A stretch of DNA of 64,000 nucleotides, taken from positions 159,866 to 223,865 of IMG/VR virus record IMGVR_UViG_3300028862_000012; one strand, 5' to 3'. The notes beneath the pieces are model-generated. The model was given only the letters and a program-made list of their open reading frames with translations. It was not told the DNA's origin and searched no databases. Made by a program: the position numbers and the translations under genes. The first letter of the stretch is position 1. Each line of letters starts with the position of its first letter. Below, in pieces: positions 26 through 46,035 of the stretch. Source of the DNA: a virus.

Positions 26-259
26 ATGAATAATAAAAGAATTTCTACTTTTGTAGATAACGAGTGGTATGCTTTTTATAGGGATGTTGATAAAGATTAC
101 ATTTGTAATCAAAGTATACTTACTATACTAGAACTATTTTACAACTACCTAAATGACAAGTCAGAGTATTGTAAAAAGCTCATGGACTACTACAATTTAA
201 TTTCAGATAAATATAAAGCTGACTATTGGAAAGAAAGATACGAAAAGGAAATAAAATGA
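26..259 (+). CDS. hypothetical small protein (77 aa)
   Basis: Unrecognised acidic, aromatic-rich protein. Its TGA stop overlaps the ATG of the next gene (ATGA), as in the rest of this gene run, which supports it as a real gene. The weak ribosome site GGAATAA lies a little far from the ATG. Codons 6-11 contain a 19-nt sequence identical to a type V-A CRISPR repeat core (40-58), which is unusual inside a coding region. Confidence 0.7.
   Translation: MNNKRISTFVDNEWYAFYRDVDKDYICNQSILTILELFYNYLNDKSEYCKKLMDYYNLISDKYKADYWKERYEKEIK
40..58 (+). CRISPR. solitary type V-A-like CRISPR repeat core inside a gene
   Basis: The sequence AATTTCTACTTTTGTAGAT has the hallmark Cas12a handle: TCTAC and GTAGA arms around a 4-nt loop, preceded by AATT. 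The identical 19 nt occur on the opposite strand at 45912-45930. There is no second repeat nearby, so this is not an array. Chance identity of 19 nt in 64 kb is unlikely, although the sequence is AT-rich. It could be a solitary repeat unit acting as an RNA anti-CRISPR, or an accident of coding sequence. Confidence 0.45.
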
Positions 260-2737: not shown

Positions 2738-2965
2738 ATGAAAACGGAAAATGAGATTAAGCGTGGGATTAAAACAACTATTAATCCAATGATGAGAAAG
2801 CTTTCTGAAAGTTTTTATTCTGGAAGTAGTCAATTGAAGTGTAAGGAACTTTATGATGTAGTTAAGTCACAGCTTAAAGCTTCTGATTTTATTAGTCAGC
2901 AGAACATTATTGAATATAAAGGGTATAAGCTTAAAGTTCGTTTTGCAGGTCAGAAGAATTGGTGA
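2738..2965 (+). CDS. hypothetical protein interrupted by in-frame TGA
   Basis: The 75-residue product starts after a clean AAGGAG site. After the TGA at 2963-2965 the same frame continues for 69 sense codons, with protein-like composition, to a TAA at 3173-3175, filling the otherwise empty gap before the methyltransferase gene. The residues around the stop read ...GQKNW-stop-FSQVYDG. A TGG to TGA change is the simplest explanation. TGA is used as a normal stop elsewhere in the window, so a global code change is unlikely. Confidence 0.55.
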   Translation: MKTENEIKRGIKTTINPMMRKLSESFYSGSSQLKCKELYDVVKSQLKASDFISQQNIIEYKGYKLKVRFAGQKNW

Positions 2966-3188
2966 TTTTCTCAGGTCTATGATGGGAACTTTTATGACTA
3001 TGATCTTTATATTCGATTCTTTAATAATGAAGATAAAGGTGTATATCTGATTAATAAGGACTATTTTAAATCATTAAAGGGAAGCAAGGCTCATGCACCT
3101 TGTAAAACTATAAAATCTTTTAATCCATCAAAAAGTGATAGAGAAGATATTGTAACTATGTATAAGGTATGTTAATATAGGAGACATT

Positions 3189-3971
3189 ATGATAGCGGAT
3201 AAGTTTTACACTGATCCGCTTTTAGCAAAGCATTTAATAGAAGTAACTAATTCAAAAATAGATTTTAGTAAGTTTGATGTTCTTCTTGAGCCTTCTGCTG
3301 GAAGTGGTAGTTTTTATTTTAATTTAGATAAATCTAAGCGTTTAGGATTAGACTTGTATCCTGATGCAAATGAAATACTTGAGCAAGATTTTTTTACTTT
3401 TAAGTATGATAGTAATAAAAAATATATAACAATTGGTAATCCTCCCTTTGGAAGAGTAAGCTCTATGGCTGTAAAGTTTTTTAATACAGCAAGTAATTTT
3501 TCAGAGTATATATGTTTTATAGTACCTCGTACTTTTAAACGAGTGTCAGTACAGAATAGATTAAACTTAAACTTTCATTTAATCTATGAAGAAAATATTC
3601 CTGCTAATAGTTTTACCCCTTCTATGAATGTAAAGTGTGTGTATCAAATATGGGAACATAGAAAGCAAAAAAGAAACATAGTCATTCTACCAAGTTTTAC
3701 TAATGATTTTAAATTTGTTTCTATAGCTAATAAGGATAATGCTGACTTTGCTATGTTGGCTTATGGGGGAAAATGTGGAAGAATAGAAAGAGTTATTCCT
3801 ACTACCGGCTTGCGTAGTTGGCATTTTATAAAAGTAATTAATGATAAAAATGTAGAAGAAATCATAGCAAGACTGAATAGCTTAGATTATTCCATTTGTG
3901 AAGATACAGCGCGACAAAACAGTATTGGGATGAAAGAAGTTTGTGAATTATATAATAATAAATATACATAA
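3189..3971 (+). CDS. N6-adenine DNA methyltransferase-like protein
   Basis: A 260-residue Rossmann-type methyltransferase candidate. Motif I, the S-adenosylmethionine loop, is seen as EPSAGSGSF (about residues 36-44). Motif IV, the catalytic site, is GNPPFG (about 84-89), the NPPF form typical of adenine-N6 methyltransferases. No target-recognition domain is obvious. It may protect phage DNA from restriction or act on RNA. The start follows GGAGACATT. Confidence 0.8.
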   Translation: MIADKFYTDPLLAKHLIEVTNSKIDFSKFDVLLEPSAGSGSFYFNLDKSKRLGLDLYPDANEILEQDFFTFKYDSNKKYITIGNPPFGRVSSMAVKFFNTASNFSEYICFIVPRTFKRVSVQNRLNLNFHLIYEENIPANSFTPSMNVKCVYQIWEHRKQKRNIVILPSFTNDFKFVSIANKDNADFAMLAYGGKCGRIERVIPTTGLRSWHFIKVINDKNVEEIIARLNSLDYSICEDTARQNSIGMKEVCELYNNKYT

Positions 3972-8446: not shown

Positions 8447-9676
8447 ATGACAGGACTTTGGGATGCAGGGAATAGCTCTTTAGATTATACAATAGTTGGA
8501 AATTGGAACGCAAATACTAATTCTCCTAATTTAGATGTTGTATCTACAATAGGAAATGCTTATATAGTTTCTACGGCTGGCACTCATACTCTTGGAACTA
8601 TATCAAATTGGAATGTTAATGATGTTGCTTTGAAAATATCTACAGGATGGGCTATTTTATCTAATAGATTTTCATTAGTTACTAATTATTTATATGTAGG
8701 AAAGCATGGTAGTGATACAGCAGGAAATGGTTCAGTAGAGAAACCTTTTTTAACAATTCAGAAAGCAATAAGTGTAGCTACAGCAGGTACAACTATTTTT
8801 GTATGGCCGGGAGCTTATACAGAAAACCTAGCATTAAAAGCAGGAGTAAACTTAGTAGCTCCTGCAAAGTTTTCGGTAACAGTTATAGGAACTGCTTCTA
8901 CTGGAATTACAGGAACAGTTTATTTAGAGAAAATAATTTTTAGAAATTCAACTGGCTATGCTCTAAATTTTAGTGGAACTACTGCTCAAAATATACAGGC
9001 TTTAATGTGTAACTTTGAGTCAGCAACAGGAAATGGATATGATGCTGTTAATTATTCAAATTCAAATGCATCCAGTAAATTATTTATGACTGATAGTGTA
9101 GTAACTACTTATACTTCTACAACGGCTAAAGCATTAAATGTTGTAGCTGGTTCTGCTGGAAGTATTATAATGGCAAATACTACAGTTCAGTTAGTAGATA
9201 ATCCTAATCATGTGGCTATTTATCTTGGTGGATCAGTTAGCTATACTCATACAATGGATGCAATAATAGGACAAGTAGTTACTGCTAATACTTCACATTT
9301 CACAGCGGCTATGTTAACTGTTACTACTTTAAGTGTCCCTACTTTAGTACATAATTCCACTTTTACAATGCCTAGTATGCTATCAAGTATTGTAACTACA
9401 ACAACTTCAACACCTGCTATAACAGGTTCAGGATTATTAACGTATGCGGCGGCTTTTTATGCAGGTACAGGAAGTGGAGGAGCGGCTACTTTAAATAATG
9501 GATTAGGCCCTTTACCTTTTGATATGGCTTCTATAAAGTTTAGGACTCAAGCAGGACTACTACCTAATACTGCTTTAGCTTTAGGATATTTAAATGGAGT
9601 TCTTGAATTTACCTCTTCTGGATTATATTTTAGTATTGGAACAACCAGATATAAATTAAGTATGACTGCTGTATAA
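8447..9676 (+). CDS. tailspike-like beta-helix protein
   Basis: A 409-residue product. Residues about 83-140 carry the pattern YVGKHGSD..G..KPFLTIQKAI and later WPGAYTENL, as in right-handed parallel beta-helix (pectin-lyase-like, DUF1565-type) proteins. The rest is Ser/Thr/Ala-rich beta structure. Probably a receptor-binding or polysaccharide-binding tailspike. No catalytic residues can be assigned by eye. The start is preceded by GAGGTAGTA. Confidence 0.75.
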   Translation: MTGLWDAGNSSLDYTIVGNWNANTNSPNLDVVSTIGNAYIVSTAGTHTLGTISNWNVNDVALKISTGWAILSNRFSLVTNYLYVGKHGSDTAGNGSVEKPFLTIQKAISVATAGTTIFVWPGAYTENLALKAGVNLVAPAKFSVTVIGTASTGITGTVYLEKIIFRNSTGYALNFSGTTAQNIQALMCNFESATGNGYDAVNYSNSNASSKLFMTDSVVTTYTSTTAKALNVVAGSAGSIIMANTTVQLVDNPNHVAIYLGGSVSYTHTMDAIIGQVVTANTSHFTAAMLTVTTLSVPTLVHNSTFTMPSMLSSIVTTTTSTPAITGSGLLTYAAAFYAGTGSGGAATLNNGLGPLPFDMASIKFRTQAGLLPNTALALGYLNGVLEFTSSGLYFSIGTTRYKLSMTAV

Positions 9677-11310: not shown

Positions 11311-11339
11311 AGTGGAATTTATGTTAGAACGACAAACAA

Positions 11340-11369
11340 CCGTGTACCGGCCTTGCGGCCACTACACGG
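11340..11369 (+). promoter_or_regulatory. strong GC hairpin in csf1 leader
   Basis: CCGTGTA/TACACGG (7 bp) and GGCC/GGCC (4 bp) stack around a TTGC loop with a small symmetric internal loop. It lies 30 bases before the proposed TTG start and just before the ribosome site. It may control translation of the operon or be an RNA partner of the complex. If an upstream ATG (11321) were the true start, this would be coding sequence. Confidence 0.5.
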
Positions 11370-11398
11370 ATAATTTGCGGGAAGAAAAGGAGGGAAGA

Positions 11399-12226
11399 TT
11401 GACAGCATCAGAATTATTTTCTGGGAATAAACATAATCACGGCGATCACAACTGCTATTACTGTGGTGCATCGTGTGATGAACAATATAAAACCGCTGAT
11501 TACGTAAAAGATACGTTTACCAATCGCGATATTGTGAAATATCCACAGTCGCAATTTGTTTGTGTCGGCTGCGTTGAATCTCTAGGGAATGGCGAAGACA
11601 AAATGCCGTTCATCGACGGGACGGTGAAAGTCAGAGAGAACGCGCGTGGTATGTGCCCGCGAATGTATTCGTGGATTTTATTTACAGATCATAAGCTCGC
11701 CGGAACAAAGGCCCATATAAAAGAATGGCGCGAGCTTTTAGCCAATCCTCCCGAACCGCCATTTGCAGTAATCCTTGCAGATTCCGGGCAGAAGCAGTTG
11801 ATATTCCGTGCACCTATCGCAATGAGTAAAAAGTGTTTTTCAATTCTTCTTGAAGATGAATGTATCGAAGTAATTCCCGAACAGCTTGCAGAACGCCTTG
11901 AAATGTGTACACCGATTTGCGCGGCTCTTGGCAAACCTGCACTGCAGGGAGAAATCTCTTTTTCATCTTATACCCGATATAACGAATATCATGGTGAAAT
12001 TGAAACTCTTGAAAAATGGTTGGCCATTCGTGACCAGCCTTTGTCGCGCCTTGCGGCGTGGTTATCGCTATCAAAGGAGAATGCACAGAATGAGTATGCA
12101 AGTATTGAGTGCGGAAAAGTTCCGGCAGGAACTCGCGGGACTAGTGGACAAAAGCCGGACGATTCCAGAAATGGAACTCGGAGTAATCAAGGATCAGGCG
12201 GTCAGGTTCTGCTCGATCTTGGCTGA
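11399..12226 (+). CDS. csf1: Csf1 (type IV-B large-subunit-like Cas8 protein)
   Basis: Large-subunit homologue of type IV CRISPR complexes. From the TTG start it reads TASELFSG, then a zinc-finger-like region with CYYCGASC (about residues 19-26) and CVGC (about 55-58), four cysteines as expected for Csf1, and ADYVKDTFT, a segment typical of the family. TTG at 11399 is chosen because AAAGGAGGGAAGA is placed ideally before it; in-frame upstream starts (GTG 11312, ATG 11321) lack such a site and would put a GC hairpin in the coding region. The last 46 codons overlap cas11 and look like out-of-frame sequence (Gly/Ser/Arg/Gln-rich), so csf1 may carry a small indel before an original stop near 12091. 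Confidence 0.8.
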   Translation: MTASELFSGNKHNHGDHNCYYCGASCDEQYKTADYVKDTFTNRDIVKYPQSQFVCVGCVESLGNGEDKMPFIDGTVKVRENARGMCPRMYSWILFTDHKLAGTKAHIKEWRELLANPPEPPFAVILADSGQKQLIFRAPIAMSKKCFSILLEDECIEVIPEQLAERLEMCTPICAALGKPALQGEISFSSYTRYNEYHGEIETLEKWLAIRDQPLSRLAAWLSLSKENAQNEYASIECGKVPAGTRGTSGQKPDDSRNGTRSNQGSGGQVLLDLG

Positions 12227-12578
12227 GGTGTTCGGCGAAGACCTTGACCGGAAAACTTTATGGGAGCGTATCGGAAACGGCCTTATTGTCGCAGCTGCAA
12301 AATGCGGCGGCGACTGGGAGCTGTTCGTCAATGAGATGCTCAAATACATTAAGGCAGAACCGGGAAAAGTAGCGGCGAATCGCGGGCTTGCGGCTTTCAT
12401 CGACGAGATGCTTGTTCGCCCGAAAGAATGGCAAGAGCAGTTTGTCCGCGAATGCGAGGCAAAGCATATGTTCATTTGCGTCAAAGCGCGGATGCTCTGG
12501 AACTCACGAAAAACACCACAGGACAATCCCGATGCAGAAGATCGTTTGACCGGAGGTGCAGAAAATGGAACTAATTAA
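12090..12578 (+). CDS. cas11: Cas11-like small subunit of type IV-B complex
   Basis: A 162-residue, mainly helical protein between csf1 and csf2, the position of the Cas11 small subunit in type IV-B operons. Small subunits line the backbone and stabilise guide or target RNA. The start ATG at 12090 follows AAAGGAG; a longer open frame from 11886 only runs inside csf1. The identification rests on position, length and helical content rather than a diagnostic motif. Confidence 0.65.
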   Translation: MSMQVLSAEKFRQELAGLVDKSRTIPEMELGVIKDQAVRFCSILAEVFGEDLDRKTLWERIGNGLIVAAAKCGGDWELFVNEMLKYIKAEPGKVAANRGLAAFIDEMLVRPKEWQEQFVRECEAKHMFICVKARMLWNSRKTPQDNPDAEDRLTGGAENGTN

Positions 12579-13521
12579 AAACTGCAAAATACATTGCCTT
12601 TCAACGGCATTATCTCCGATCACGCACATGATGGGAACCTCTGGGAATGAATCCGTCATCAACCGCGAATCAGTCCTGTTCAAAAATAAAATCAGACAGG
12701 TTCCGGTTCTGTCTGGCAACGCAATTCGTCACAAGATGATACGCGATCCAGGCGGCCTCTACCTTATCAAAGAGTGCGGACTTGTCGGGAAGCTGAACAT
12801 CGATCAAGCGAATTACCTACTGAATGGCGGTTCTCTGACAGAATCTTCGACAACGGAAAACCTTGGGCGTATTGCAGAAATGCAAACACTCATGCCGCTC
12901 ACCCGACTGCTCGGAGGATCACTACGAAATCAGGTTATCGGTGGATCTCTGTTTGTTCTTCGAGGGCTTTTGGTCTGCGAGGAAAACAGAAGCCAGATTC
13001 AGAAACAACTTCCAGAAGGCTACGAACTTCCTGAACAGGCATTGCGTTCGGCGGAAGATTTCATCGATCAATATCAGTACACCCGCGGAGATGCGCAAAA
13101 ACGGAACGACGCTGATCTTATGCTTGAAGAAAAATCCGATGACGTAAAATCAAATCTTATGATTTACAACGGACAGGATGTAATTCCCGGTTCTGTTTTC
13201 TATCATGGGTTCACCTTACAGAATATTTCACCGATCGAAGTAGGGGCATTGCTCCATTCGCTTATTCAGTGGGATGCAGCGGGCGGATTTATCGGAGGTC
13301 AATCACGCATAGGACATGGAAAACTCAAGATGTCGATTTTCTTCGAGGACGGAGACGACTTCATGGGAAATGAACTCAATCCGGCTGATATCGTGAAAAT
13401 GTATATCGACCACGTACACGCGAATGCAGAAAAAATTGCGCAATGGCTCGATGATACATTCCCGAACAAAGGGAAAAAAGCGGACGCGAAAAAACTTGCT
13501 GAAGGAGCGCTCGGCTTATGA
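12565..13521 (+). CDS. csf2: Csf2 (type IV Cas7-family backbone)
   Basis: A 318-residue RAMP protein forming the RNA-binding filament. Features include the N-terminal RAMP strand, VPVLSGNAIRHKMIRD (about 46-61), the conserved SGN.IR element of Csf2/Cas7, and a Gly-rich C-terminal loop GGFIGGQSRIGHG (about 248-260). The start ATG follows CCGGAGG and overlaps cas11 by 14 bases. In known type IV-B systems this protein assembles with Csf1, Csf3 and Cas11 around short RNA. Confidence 0.85.
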   Translation: MELIKNCKIHCLSTALSPITHMMGTSGNESVINRESVLFKNKIRQVPVLSGNAIRHKMIRDPGGLYLIKECGLVGKLNIDQANYLLNGGSLTESSTTENLGRIAEMQTLMPLTRLLGGSLRNQVIGGSLFVLRGLLVCEENRSQIQKQLPEGYELPEQALRSAEDFIDQYQYTRGDAQKRNDADLMLEEKSDDVKSNLMIYNGQDVIPGSVFYHGFTLQNISPIEVGALLHSLIQWDAAGGFIGGQSRIGHGKLKMSIFFEDGDDFMGNELNPADIVKMYIDHVHANAEKIAQWLDDTFPNKGKKADAKKLAEGALGL

Positions 13522-14198
13522 TAAAGAACTGGAAAGTCACCGCATGGCTTTCCAGCCCTTTGGCTGGAGAACCCCCACAGTTTGACGCAATACTCGGATG
13601 GGAACTTGCGCGTCGGCTTGGGTATAAACATTGCCGAAAGCTTACAAGAGATACGCCGTTGAGCGATATTCAAAATCCGCCGATCCCACTTGCGCAGCGT
13701 ACTATTTCAGGCGTTGACGTGTTCTGCTGTTCAGCGCCGATACTTCCCGAGCCTCATGATGAATGGGTTGAGAGAATATCAAAGCGGATTGACACCGACG
13801 AAATAGCCTTGCTTCTTGCGCCTGAGTTCCGCAAGTCTCTGCTTGTAGCATCTGGCCCGTATAAGATGCGGTATGTTCCTGAGCGGATTCGCCTTATTGA
13901 TTGCGTATGCTGGTTTGTACGTGGAGATAGAAAAGAAATACACAAGCTAGTAAAATCAGTCTATGCGATTGGGAAGCATCGTAATATTGGGTATGGTCAG
14001 GTTGAAGATTGGACGTTTGAAGAAACTGAAGAAGATTATTCCATCTCTGCATTACGTCAAGGCAAGCCGGTGCTTATGAAAATAATTCCGTTCGGAAGCG
14101 AATGTCAAAATATGACTGGATACAAACATTCTTTCGGCGCGGCGAATATGCCGTATTGGCATCCGGAGAATTATCGGGAGATTGCTTCTCCATGTTGA
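13518..14198 (+). CDS. csf3: Csf3 (type IV Cas5-family protein)
   Basis: A 226-residue RAMP protein translationally coupled to csf2 (ATGA). The N-terminus KVTAWLSSPLAGEPPQFDAI is typical of Csf3. A Gly-rich region GKHRNIGYGQVEDW (about 153-166) matches the RAMP glycine loop. Cas5-type subunits cap the 5' end of the guide RNA. The C-terminus ends with a PYWHPENY segment. Confidence 0.85.
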   Translation: MIKNWKVTAWLSSPLAGEPPQFDAILGWELARRLGYKHCRKLTRDTPLSDIQNPPIPLAQRTISGVDVFCCSAPILPEPHDEWVERISKRIDTDEIALLLAPEFRKSLLVASGPYKMRYVPERIRLIDCVCWFVRGDRKEIHKLVKSVYAIGKHRNIGYGQVEDWTFEETEEDYSISALRQGKPVLMKIIPFGSECQNMTGYKHSFGAANMPYWHPENYREIASPC

Positions 14199-14479
14199 TT
14201 GACAAGAAGATAATATTTAGAGCCGGGACGGATACGAAAGAATTATATTTATGTGTTGCGGCTCTAAATAAATATCTTGTAGAAAACGAGATAAGATCAA
14301 ACGATAGAGAACGGACATACAACGTCCACAACAACACGAAAGAAATATACATACGTGAGAGAAGTAAAAGTATTTTTGTGAGGTATAAAAAATTAAAAGA
14401 ACCGAAAGCGCGAGCGCGAAAAGATAAACAGTTAACGAGAGAAACTACAAACAGTACATATGGAGATGGTAGGTGTTAA
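14192..14479 (+). CDS. unknown basic protein between csf3 and cysH (95 aa)
   Basis: The open frame extends upstream to an ATG at 14102 inside csf3, but the ATG at 14192 overlaps the csf3 stop closely and is preferred. The product is basic, with a Lys/Arg-rich C-terminus (KARARKDKQ), which would suit RNA or DNA binding. No known type IV-B subunit fits. Composition becomes AT-richer here, suggesting a separate origin from csf1-csf3. Confidence 0.55.
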   Translation: MLIDKKIIFRAGTDTKELYLCVAALNKYLVENEIRSNDRERTYNVHNNTKEIYIRERSKSIFVRYKKLKEPKARARKDKQLTRETTNSTYGDGRC

Positions 14480-15168
14480 TAATAACAGATCGTCATACAG
14501 AAAAAGATTTGAAACTTTGGAAAGAGTATAAGGAGATTGATAAAATATCAACATACTCTGAAAAGAAAATAGAGCTTGCAAAAAAATCTATCAATGAGTT
14601 TTCATGTAAACATATTGATACTGTTATATATACGTCATGGGGAAAGGATTCGATTATTCTTCTTCATCTTGTCGCGCTAATGGAATTAAAATATCCGGTT
14701 GTATATGTACGTTTTAATGACCGCGATAATCCAGATTGTGAATTAGTTCGCGATGCGTTTCTGAAGAAATACAATATTGATTATCACGAGGAATATTTTG
14801 ATTATAAACGCGTTCGTGCAAAAGATTTGCACTGGAAAGAAACGGCTAATAAATATGGGCATCATAGAATTACCGGAATAAGAAACGATGAATCAGGGCG
14901 TCGATTATTGAACTGGAAAAAATACGGCTTCTTTTCAGAAAATACTTGTCGCCCATTATCATTGCTTACAAACAAAGAAGTATTCGCATATATTTATCAT
15001 AATGATTTACCGCTATGCCCTGTATATGGATACCTCGGAGGTGGAAGATGGCCACGTGAAAACATACGAACTCATTCACTCGCAGGTTCAAGTGCGGATG
15101 GTTTCGGACGAACGGAATGGGAGTTCGAATATTATCCTGATATTTTGAACAGAATTAAGAGTTTCTAA
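14473..15168 (+). CDS. cysH: CysH-like PAPS reductase-family protein of type IV-B
   Basis: A 231-residue PP-loop protein. The nucleotide loop is YTSWGKDSI (about 54-62, the SxGKDS pattern). GIRNDESGRR (about 137-146) and CRPLSLLTNKE (about 160-170) follow as in adenylyl- or phosphoadenylyl-sulfate reductases and DndC relatives. A cysH-like gene is a known accessory of array-less type IV-B loci; its role is unproven. The start is GTG, overlapping the previous stop. The stop TAA lies inside the downstream inverted repeat. Confidence 0.85.
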   Translation: MLIITDRHTEKDLKLWKEYKEIDKISTYSEKKIELAKKSINEFSCKHIDTVIYTSWGKDSIILLHLVALMELKYPVVYVRFNDRDNPDCELVRDAFLKKYNIDYHEEYFDYKRVRAKDLHWKETANKYGHHRITGIRNDESGRRLLNWKKYGFFSENTCRPLSLLTNKEVFAYIYHNDLPLCPVYGYLGGGRWPRENIRTHSLAGSSADGFGRTEWEFEYYPDILNRIKSF

Positions 15169-45070: not shown

Positions 45071-45847
45071 CTATTTTCCACCATTAATTTTTTCATCCAA
45101 TTGCTGAACCTGAATAGTAAGTACTTCAATCTTATGAATCAGCTTATTTTTCTTTTCCTCAAGTTCTTCTATTTCCTCAAGCTCTTCCATTGGTTCTTTA
45201 ATAATCTGTTTTACCTGATCAATAGTTTTTCCTTGCTGAAGCAAAATAAGTGCCTTTTGTGCTTTATCCAGATCAGAAGTAAGTGCTACAAAAGTTTTAG
45301 CATCAGAACTAATATCATTAGGAATACCCCGAGTAGCAATCTTAACAGTCTTTTTTACTGTTGTTCGCTTAATTCCAATAGTACGATCTGTAATATCTTC
45401 ATATCGTACATTTTCTTCTTTGCAGATAGTCTGTACTTCAATCAGTGCTGTACCCATTTCAGAAGTAAGCTTACTAATTTGTACATCCAGTTCTTTTACC
45501 TTATCAATTTTAGCTTTCAAGTTGTCAGAGATAACTACAGTGTAAAATCCGAGTTTTTCGGCTTTAGTAATTAGATCATAAAAGGTAGACCAAAAGAAAC
45601 TGGTATGTCCTTCCTTACGATTATTTTCTGCATACACTACATGATGAGCTAGTTCATGCAGTGCTGTAAAAAAGAGCAGATTATTGTCATCATTGAAATT
45701 TCGGTTATTTAATAGTATTTCTTTTGTTGCAGGTAAATATTTACCATTTACATTTTTAGATTTCTTTCCAGTAAAAATACAAGTATATTCATTTACGCAA
45801 TGATATACCTTATCCAGATTTTCTTTAACATCATTTTGATTCCACAT
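45071..45847 (-). CDS. SprT-like zinc metallopeptidase
   Basis: A 258-residue protein. HELAHHVVYAENNRKEGHTSFFW (HExxH at about 66-70, third His in EGHTSFF) matches SprT/SprT-like peptidases. The C-terminal half is a long coiled coil (about 120-255). The gene follows a two-repeat type V-A-like mini-array in its 5' leader. The ribosome site AAAGGATG lies between the second repeat and the ATG. Confidence 0.7.
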   Translation of the reverse strand: MWNQNDVKENLDKVYHCVNEYTCIFTGKKSKNVNGKYLPATKEILLNNRNFNDDNNLLFFTALHELAHHVVYAENNRKEGHTSFFWSTFYDLITKAEKLGFYTVVISDNLKAKIDKVKELDVQISKLTSEMGTALIEVQTICKEENVRYEDITDRTIGIKRTTVKKTVKIATRGIPNDISSDAKTFVALTSDLDKAQKALILLQQGKTIDQVKQIIKEPMEELEEIEELEEKKNKLIHKIEVLTIQVQQLDEKINGGK

Positions 45848-45859
45848 ATAACATCCTTT

Positions 45860-45945
45860 ATCTACATAAGTAGAAATTTTAATTTTCTAAATACTCGCAA
45901 GAAATCAATTCATCTACAAAAGTAGAAATTTAAAACCTTCTAAAA
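45860..45945 (-). CRISPR. two-repeat type V-A-like mini-array
   Basis: On the minus strand, repeat 1 (45945-45912) ends in AATTTCTACTTTTGTAGAT and repeat 2 (45892-45860) ends in AATTTCTACTTATGTAGAT; both start with TTTAGAA and have TCTAC/GTAGA stems. A 19-base unit (45893-45911) lies between, shorter than normal Cas12a spacers. No cas12a, cas1 or cas2 is nearby. It sits between a promoter and the SprT-like gene. It may be a degenerate mini-array or an RNA anti-CRISPR that loads Cas12a with a useless guide. Confidence 0.6.
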
Positions 45946-45971: not shown

Positions 45972-45998
45972 AGTATAACAAAATAAATTATAAGTCAA
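45972..45998 (-). promoter_or_regulatory. promoter for mini-array and SprT-like gene
   Basis: TTGACT (45998-45993) and TATACT (45977-45972) on the minus strand, spacer 15 bp, shorter than the usual 17 in this genome. The transcript would begin about 20 bases before repeat 1, after a small ATTTCTT/AAGAAAT hairpin. Confidence 0.45.
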
Positions 45999-46005
45999 TA
46001 ACTAA

Positions 46006-46035
46006 ATGCGGAGAATATAAAGCTAATCTCCGCAT
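46006..46035 (-). terminator. hairpin terminator
   Basis: ATGCGGAGA and TCTCCGCAT form a perfect 9-bp stem with a 12-base loop, one base after the stop of the leftward gene 46037-46258. It isolates the mini-array unit from upstream transcription. The T tract is weak. Confidence 0.6.

Follow-up and report, generated by a model that had tools for sequence, protein, structure and literature searches.

RNA anti-CRISPRs have been defined on solitary repeats, and the principle is already established for type V-A by RacrVA1-3, three Racr candidates shown to inhibit the type V-A system of Moraxella bovoculi (PMC10651486). One racr is transcribed together with a protein gene, and full repeat matches lying no more than 100 bp apart are treated by SRUFinder as arrays and not retained as solitary repeats (PMC10651486); tandem twin units are therefore probably missing from its list. 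The locus described here presents two repeat units, R1 and R2, placed in tandem in the leader of a SprT-like gene, in what may be an RNA decoy for Cas12a.

The source record is a large bacterial virus of 223,865 bases, of which bases 159,866-223,865 make up the window, the stretch of 64,000 bases analyzed here and to which coordinates refer unless stated otherwise. Its GC content is 27-30% throughout, its terminase shows 24-26% identity to phage terminases, and it encodes tail sheath, baseplate, anaerobic NrdD and RecA genes. The record also contains an adenylosuccinate synthetase-like gene (L005:4860-7262, minus strand), assigned through PHROG to the 2-aminoadenine pathway type and split by an intein that contains a LAGLIDADG domain. 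Peptide-pattern scans of viral contigs for relatives of the phage, based on the SprT-like protein, the terminase and RecA, returned none, and the NrdD scan returned a single contig, G001 (IMGVR_UViG_3300031918_000008, 103.5 kb), which matches the phage at 100% identity across the 39.5 kb that were compared and stops at window base 9362, short of the SprT locus and of a type IV-B module discussed below. A distant blastn comparison of the locus with phage records gave no match, and the lack in these searches of a diverged phage relative spanning the twin handles counts against a decoy.

On the minus strand, R1 (TTTTAGAAGGTTTTAAATTTCTACTTTTGTAGAT) occupies positions 45912..45945 (read 45945-45912) and R2 (TTTAGAAAATTAAAATTTCTACTTATGTAGAT) positions 45860..45891 (read 45891-45860). 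Both are units of 32-34 nt closing with a perfect type V-A handle, AATTTCTACTT(T/A)TGTAGAT, located at 45912-45930 in R1 and at 45860-45878 in R2. They have in common TTTAGAA, followed by 6-7 variable bases and then by AATTTCTACTTNTGTAGAT, and their likeness, which reaches to the 5' side only, ends precisely after GTAGAT, where the handle itself stops on its 3' side. The starts of their 26-nt cores lie 52 bases apart, and a spacer-like stretch, GAATTGATTTCTTGCGAGTA (45892..45911, minus strand), separates them. The two units of the original prediction, with TTTAGAA at the 5' side and TCTAC-N4-GTAGA at the 3' side, are thus seen directly, and the 19 bases it placed between them measure 18-20, as set by where the start of R2 is placed. 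Its statement that there is no Cas12a gene is borne out as well, since none was found in the whole phage record; a comparison with Rfam yielded nothing convincing. A third-order Markov model of the 223,865-base phage predicts 0.03 occurrences of TTTCTACN4GTAGAT over both strands and 2e-7 tandem pairs with the copies no more than 100 nt apart; the latter figure counts in favor of a decoy. The record holds three copies of this motif, the third being found at window 40-58.

This third handle (AATTTCTACTTTTGTAGAT, 40..58, plus strand), which the original prediction had missed, is identical to the R1 handle in 19/19 positions, lacks TTTAGAA and lies in frame within the start of a small ORF (MNNKRISTFVDNEW...); its relation to R1 and R2 is uncertain. 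Given an expectation of 0.0026 for AATTTCTACN4GTAGAT in the phage under the same model, it is either a coincidence, at odds of roughly 1 in 400, or a solitary unit whose presence within coding sequence is tolerated.

We take the 19-base end of R1 and R2 to be the Cas12a 5' handle, known from type V-A crRNA. In a GTDB scan, the R1 handle variant appears in regularly spaced arrays at at least 52 loci and the R2 variant at at least five, in Clostridia and Patescibacteria, and in Phascolarctobacterium sp. RGIG3840 two repeats with a handle identical to that of R1 adjoin the gene of a 1,297-aa Cas12a. This V-A array of six repeats (L106, about 2780-3197, minus strand) has irregular spacing and is degenerate outside the handles, with little else conserved. 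Solitary handles are not specific by themselves, for they make up about 45% of loci among the GTDB matches listed, some of them probably coding. Twins closer than normal array spacing, on the other hand, were encountered only twice in a survey that covered Bacteroidales, Clostridia, Negativicutes and V-A-type genomes, about 1,130 in all, both times in real V-A arrays (the Phascolarctobacterium array and the final repeat of a long array from Bacteroidales), and a backward-read control pattern gave no twins in the same genomes. The exact recurrence of the 19-nt handle, the end of the likeness at the handle edge and the confinement of the short-spaced twins in the surveyed genomes to V-A arrays thus make the sequence-based identification of R1 and R2 as type V-A repeat units well supported. 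In the comparison with host arrays that had been proposed, the handle matches the repeats of many hosts, but for the TTTAGAA 5' part searches of viral contigs and GTDB revealed no cellular V-A repeat combining it with the handle. This missing match counts against a decoy.

Downstream of the units lies the SprT-like gene (45071..45847, minus strand), the 258-aa product of which carries a HELAHH motif and matches Pfam SprT-like weakly, below the cut-off (E 0.0011). Its single-sequence fold is poor (mean pLDDT 46), and no significant sequence relative was found in the PDB. The Shine-Dalgarno region of the gene, AAAGGATG (45852..45859, minus strand), begins immediately after the R2 handle, which runs straight into AAAGGA, and the next 24 bases, in what would be the guide position, contain the ribosome-binding site and the ATG. 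On the opposite side, the units had been described as standing directly behind a promoter and isolated by a terminator. A promoter-like site, so far as prediction goes, is present at 45972..45998 (minus strand), consisting of TTGACT (45998-45993), 15 nt and an extended -10 element, TGTTATACT (45980-45972), but its spacing is short and a consensus promoter scan does not list it. The stem of a possible weak terminator is likewise present between the upstream gene and the leader, as the hairpin ATGCGGAGA/TTCTCCGCAT (46006..46035, minus strand; arms 46035-46027 and 46015-46006), but its loop measures 11 bases, its T tail is weak, and the scan listed no terminator. The weakness of both elements counts against a decoy, as does the predicted fold of the leader, which disfavors the R1 handle (pair probability 0.04-0.12). 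The R2 handle reaches 0.2-0.8 by length folded, and handles in real arrays and in other viral twins are mostly at 0.6-1.0.

Such viral twins were sought in one twin-handle scan over 2.9 million viral contigs, which yielded four stretches. Two of these (L143 and L144) are regular V-A arrays and the other two are isolated twins of V-A handles, located in contigs that are unrelated to the phage and therein count in favor of a decoy. In IMGVR_UViG_3300024518_005131 (L141:4613-4671, minus strand), the twins have a period of 42, the first handle starts six bases behind a TATAAT, and a strong terminator, made up of GGCAGGCCGATGGCTTGCC and a T run, comes after the second handle. In IMGVR_UViG_3300035512_000080 (L142:4630-4686, plus strand), a contig that also contains a reverse-transcriptase-like gene, the period is 40 and the first handle lies four bases behind TACCTTTG, a sequence similar to a Bacteroidetes promoter element. 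Judged by their layout, both look like small-RNA genes built of two Cas12a handles.

The original prediction had also allowed for a tiny guide array and had suggested a search of the 19-base unit against phages and plasmids. Comparison of GAATTGATTTCTTGCGAGTA with viral contigs gave seven 17-mer matches, none of which could be extended, the matches to phage records are at chance level only, and the phage itself offers no PAM-adjacent seed match of at least 9. The search accordingly produced no convincing protospacer in any of the three, leaving the idea of a guide array without support. In the reverse direction, 855 spacers from V-A arrays gave short, chance-size matches only to the phage, among the matches listed.

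Given that the phage has no Cas12a and that the spacer has no convincing target, the simplest reading is that the twin units constitute an RNA anti-CRISPR-like decoy for Cas12a, arranged in tandem and embedded in an mRNA leader. On the sequence evidence we consider this reading to be about evenly poised between right and wrong, and it is our best bet among those weighed here, a guide array being unlikely. Transcription of the SprT-like gene by the phage in a type V-A host would display two Cas12a handles in the leader, which apo-Cas12a would bind and trim like a pre-crRNA, cutting 5' of both AAUUUCUAC sequences in the leader RNA. Cas12a would then be left holding RNAs whose guides, the stretch between R1 and R2 and the ribosome-binding region, match nothing useful, and fewer Cas12a molecules would carry real anti-phage guides. 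We infer transcription of the leader, binding and processing by Cas12a and the resulting inhibition; the units themselves and their arrangement are read directly from the DNA. The arrangement would amount to a tandem version of the Racr principle, placed in cis with a protein-coding gene.

The same abutment of R2 on the ribosome-binding site opens two further readings. Because the R2 handle ends at the Shine-Dalgarno region, bound Cas12a would mask the beginning of the SprT-like gene, and the transcript could hence be both a decoy and a Cas12a-controlled gene, with Cas12a trimming and covering the start of the mRNA and the phage thereby sensing host Cas12a and adjusting expression; we regard this combination as rather unlikely. 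Control in cis, in which Cas12a on R2 would cover the Shine-Dalgarno region and start codon and lower SprT-like expression or trim the mRNA, making the gene responsive to host Cas12a, appears similarly improbable from the sequence, for the position of R2 at the ribosome-binding site could be incidental and the twin handles of L141 are away from any gene start. Another proposal dispenses with CRISPR altogether and views the TCTAC-N4-GTAGA palindromes as tandem operators bound by a DNA-binding regulator, or as part of a leader hairpin controlling the SprT-like gene. A repeated palindrome between a promoter-like site and a gene does have the layout of an operator, and TTTTAAATTTCTA of R1 can pair with TAGAAAATTAAAA of R2 in 12/13 positions, a pairing that outcompetes the R1 handle in the predicted fold. 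However, the leader is no more stable than its shuffles (z -0.54), and conservation that extends in the 5' direction and stops at the GTAGAT of the handle 3' end accords with a V-A repeat and not with a palindromic operator. The conservation is not dyad-symmetric, nor is it shared by several promoters, the motif being absent from every other leader in the phage record, and the AATT flank and the final T agree with the Cas12a handle, as does the stem. We therefore hold the proposal to be doubtful, albeit worth keeping in mind.

Two repeats and a spacer are also the ingredients of a working mini-array, through which host Cas12a, guided by the spacer RNA, would attack a rival virus or plasmid or repress a gene, and virus-borne mini-arrays are known to act on related viruses in the Sulfolobales (PMC6858448; PMC11656645). 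Nevertheless, the published viral mini-arrays carry repeats identical to those of the host (PMC11656645), while R1 and R2 differ in their middles and are identical neither to each other nor to any host repeat found; together with the unsuccessful target search, this renders a mini-array quite improbable. The diverged middles and the short spacer would fit a captured V-A array in decay and now functionless, and end repeats of real arrays degenerate alike (L146), but both 19-nt handles fit the V-A consensus perfectly amid drift in the remainder, a pattern suggestive of selection on the handle, and no further array parts lie nearby. Such a leftover is very improbable.

The phage encodes two other kinds of system that might be thought to use the handles. 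A type IV-B CRISPR module (csf1, cas11, csf2, csf3 and cysH), absent from the original prediction, occupies window 11312-15168 on the plus strand. Its csf genes have a GC content of 43-50% and its cysH one of about 36%, as opposed to about 29% in the surroundings, and the csf composition suggests that the module was probably acquired recently. No array was noticed beside it on a non-systematic look, and arrays are usually absent from type IV-B systems (PMC10848311, PMC11656645). The type IV-B complex is a possible user of the twin-handle RNAs, but the module lies about 31 kb from the units and differs from the phage in base composition, with up to 50% GC. Two TnpB genes of the IS605/Cas12f-like kind are also present (L006:11908-13179, minus strand, and L011:3842-5047, plus strand, corresponding to phage bases 51908-53179 and 143842-145047). 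These were set aside as users of the handles, being at least 60 kb away and having guide RNAs that differ in kind from Cas12a handles.

If the decoy reading is right, tandem handles, as found in the phage and in two unrelated viral contigs, would form a class of RNA anti-CRISPRs that surveys built on solitary repeats miss, and twin handles at an mRNA start suggest that protein-coding transcripts can incorporate decoys. The phage leader moreover provides a short RNA suited to direct tests on well-studied Cas12a enzymes.

Comparison with described systems helps to delimit what is particular to this locus. As in RacrVA1-3 and the V-A solitary repeat units (PMC10651486), a repeat of the V-A subtype is carried by a phage with no Cas12a in the same genome and is expected to occupy that effector. 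The suggested type V-A version of Racr thus stands as regards the exact handles, present twice, and the missing Cas12a, but not as regards solitude, the units being paired at a distance of 52 bases and the handle at window 40-58, which is solitary, being coding. Unlike RacrVA1-3, the phage units, known here from sequence, stand in tandem in the 5' leader of a protein-coding mRNA, where one of the handles directly adjoins the ribosome-binding site. With the virus-borne mini-CRISPR arrays (PMC6858448, PMC11656645) the locus shares a viral setting and a single spacer flanked by two repeats, but here the repeats match neither each other nor a known host repeat, the spacer is short and no target was found. 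A repeat mimic and a protein gene in one transcript are likewise seen in the RacrIC1-AcrIC5 operon (PMC10651486), where the acr gene is followed after 11 nt by the repeat, whereas the phage units lie upstream of a SprT-like gene with no known anti-CRISPR role. Fuxivirus (PMC10848311) is likewise a virus that combines csf genes and cysH with a two-repeat unit, but its mini-array is part of the IV-B locus, whereas the phage units are of type V-A and distant from the csf genes. Set against RacrVA1-3, hence, what is new here is the tandem form of the units and their place in an mRNA leader.
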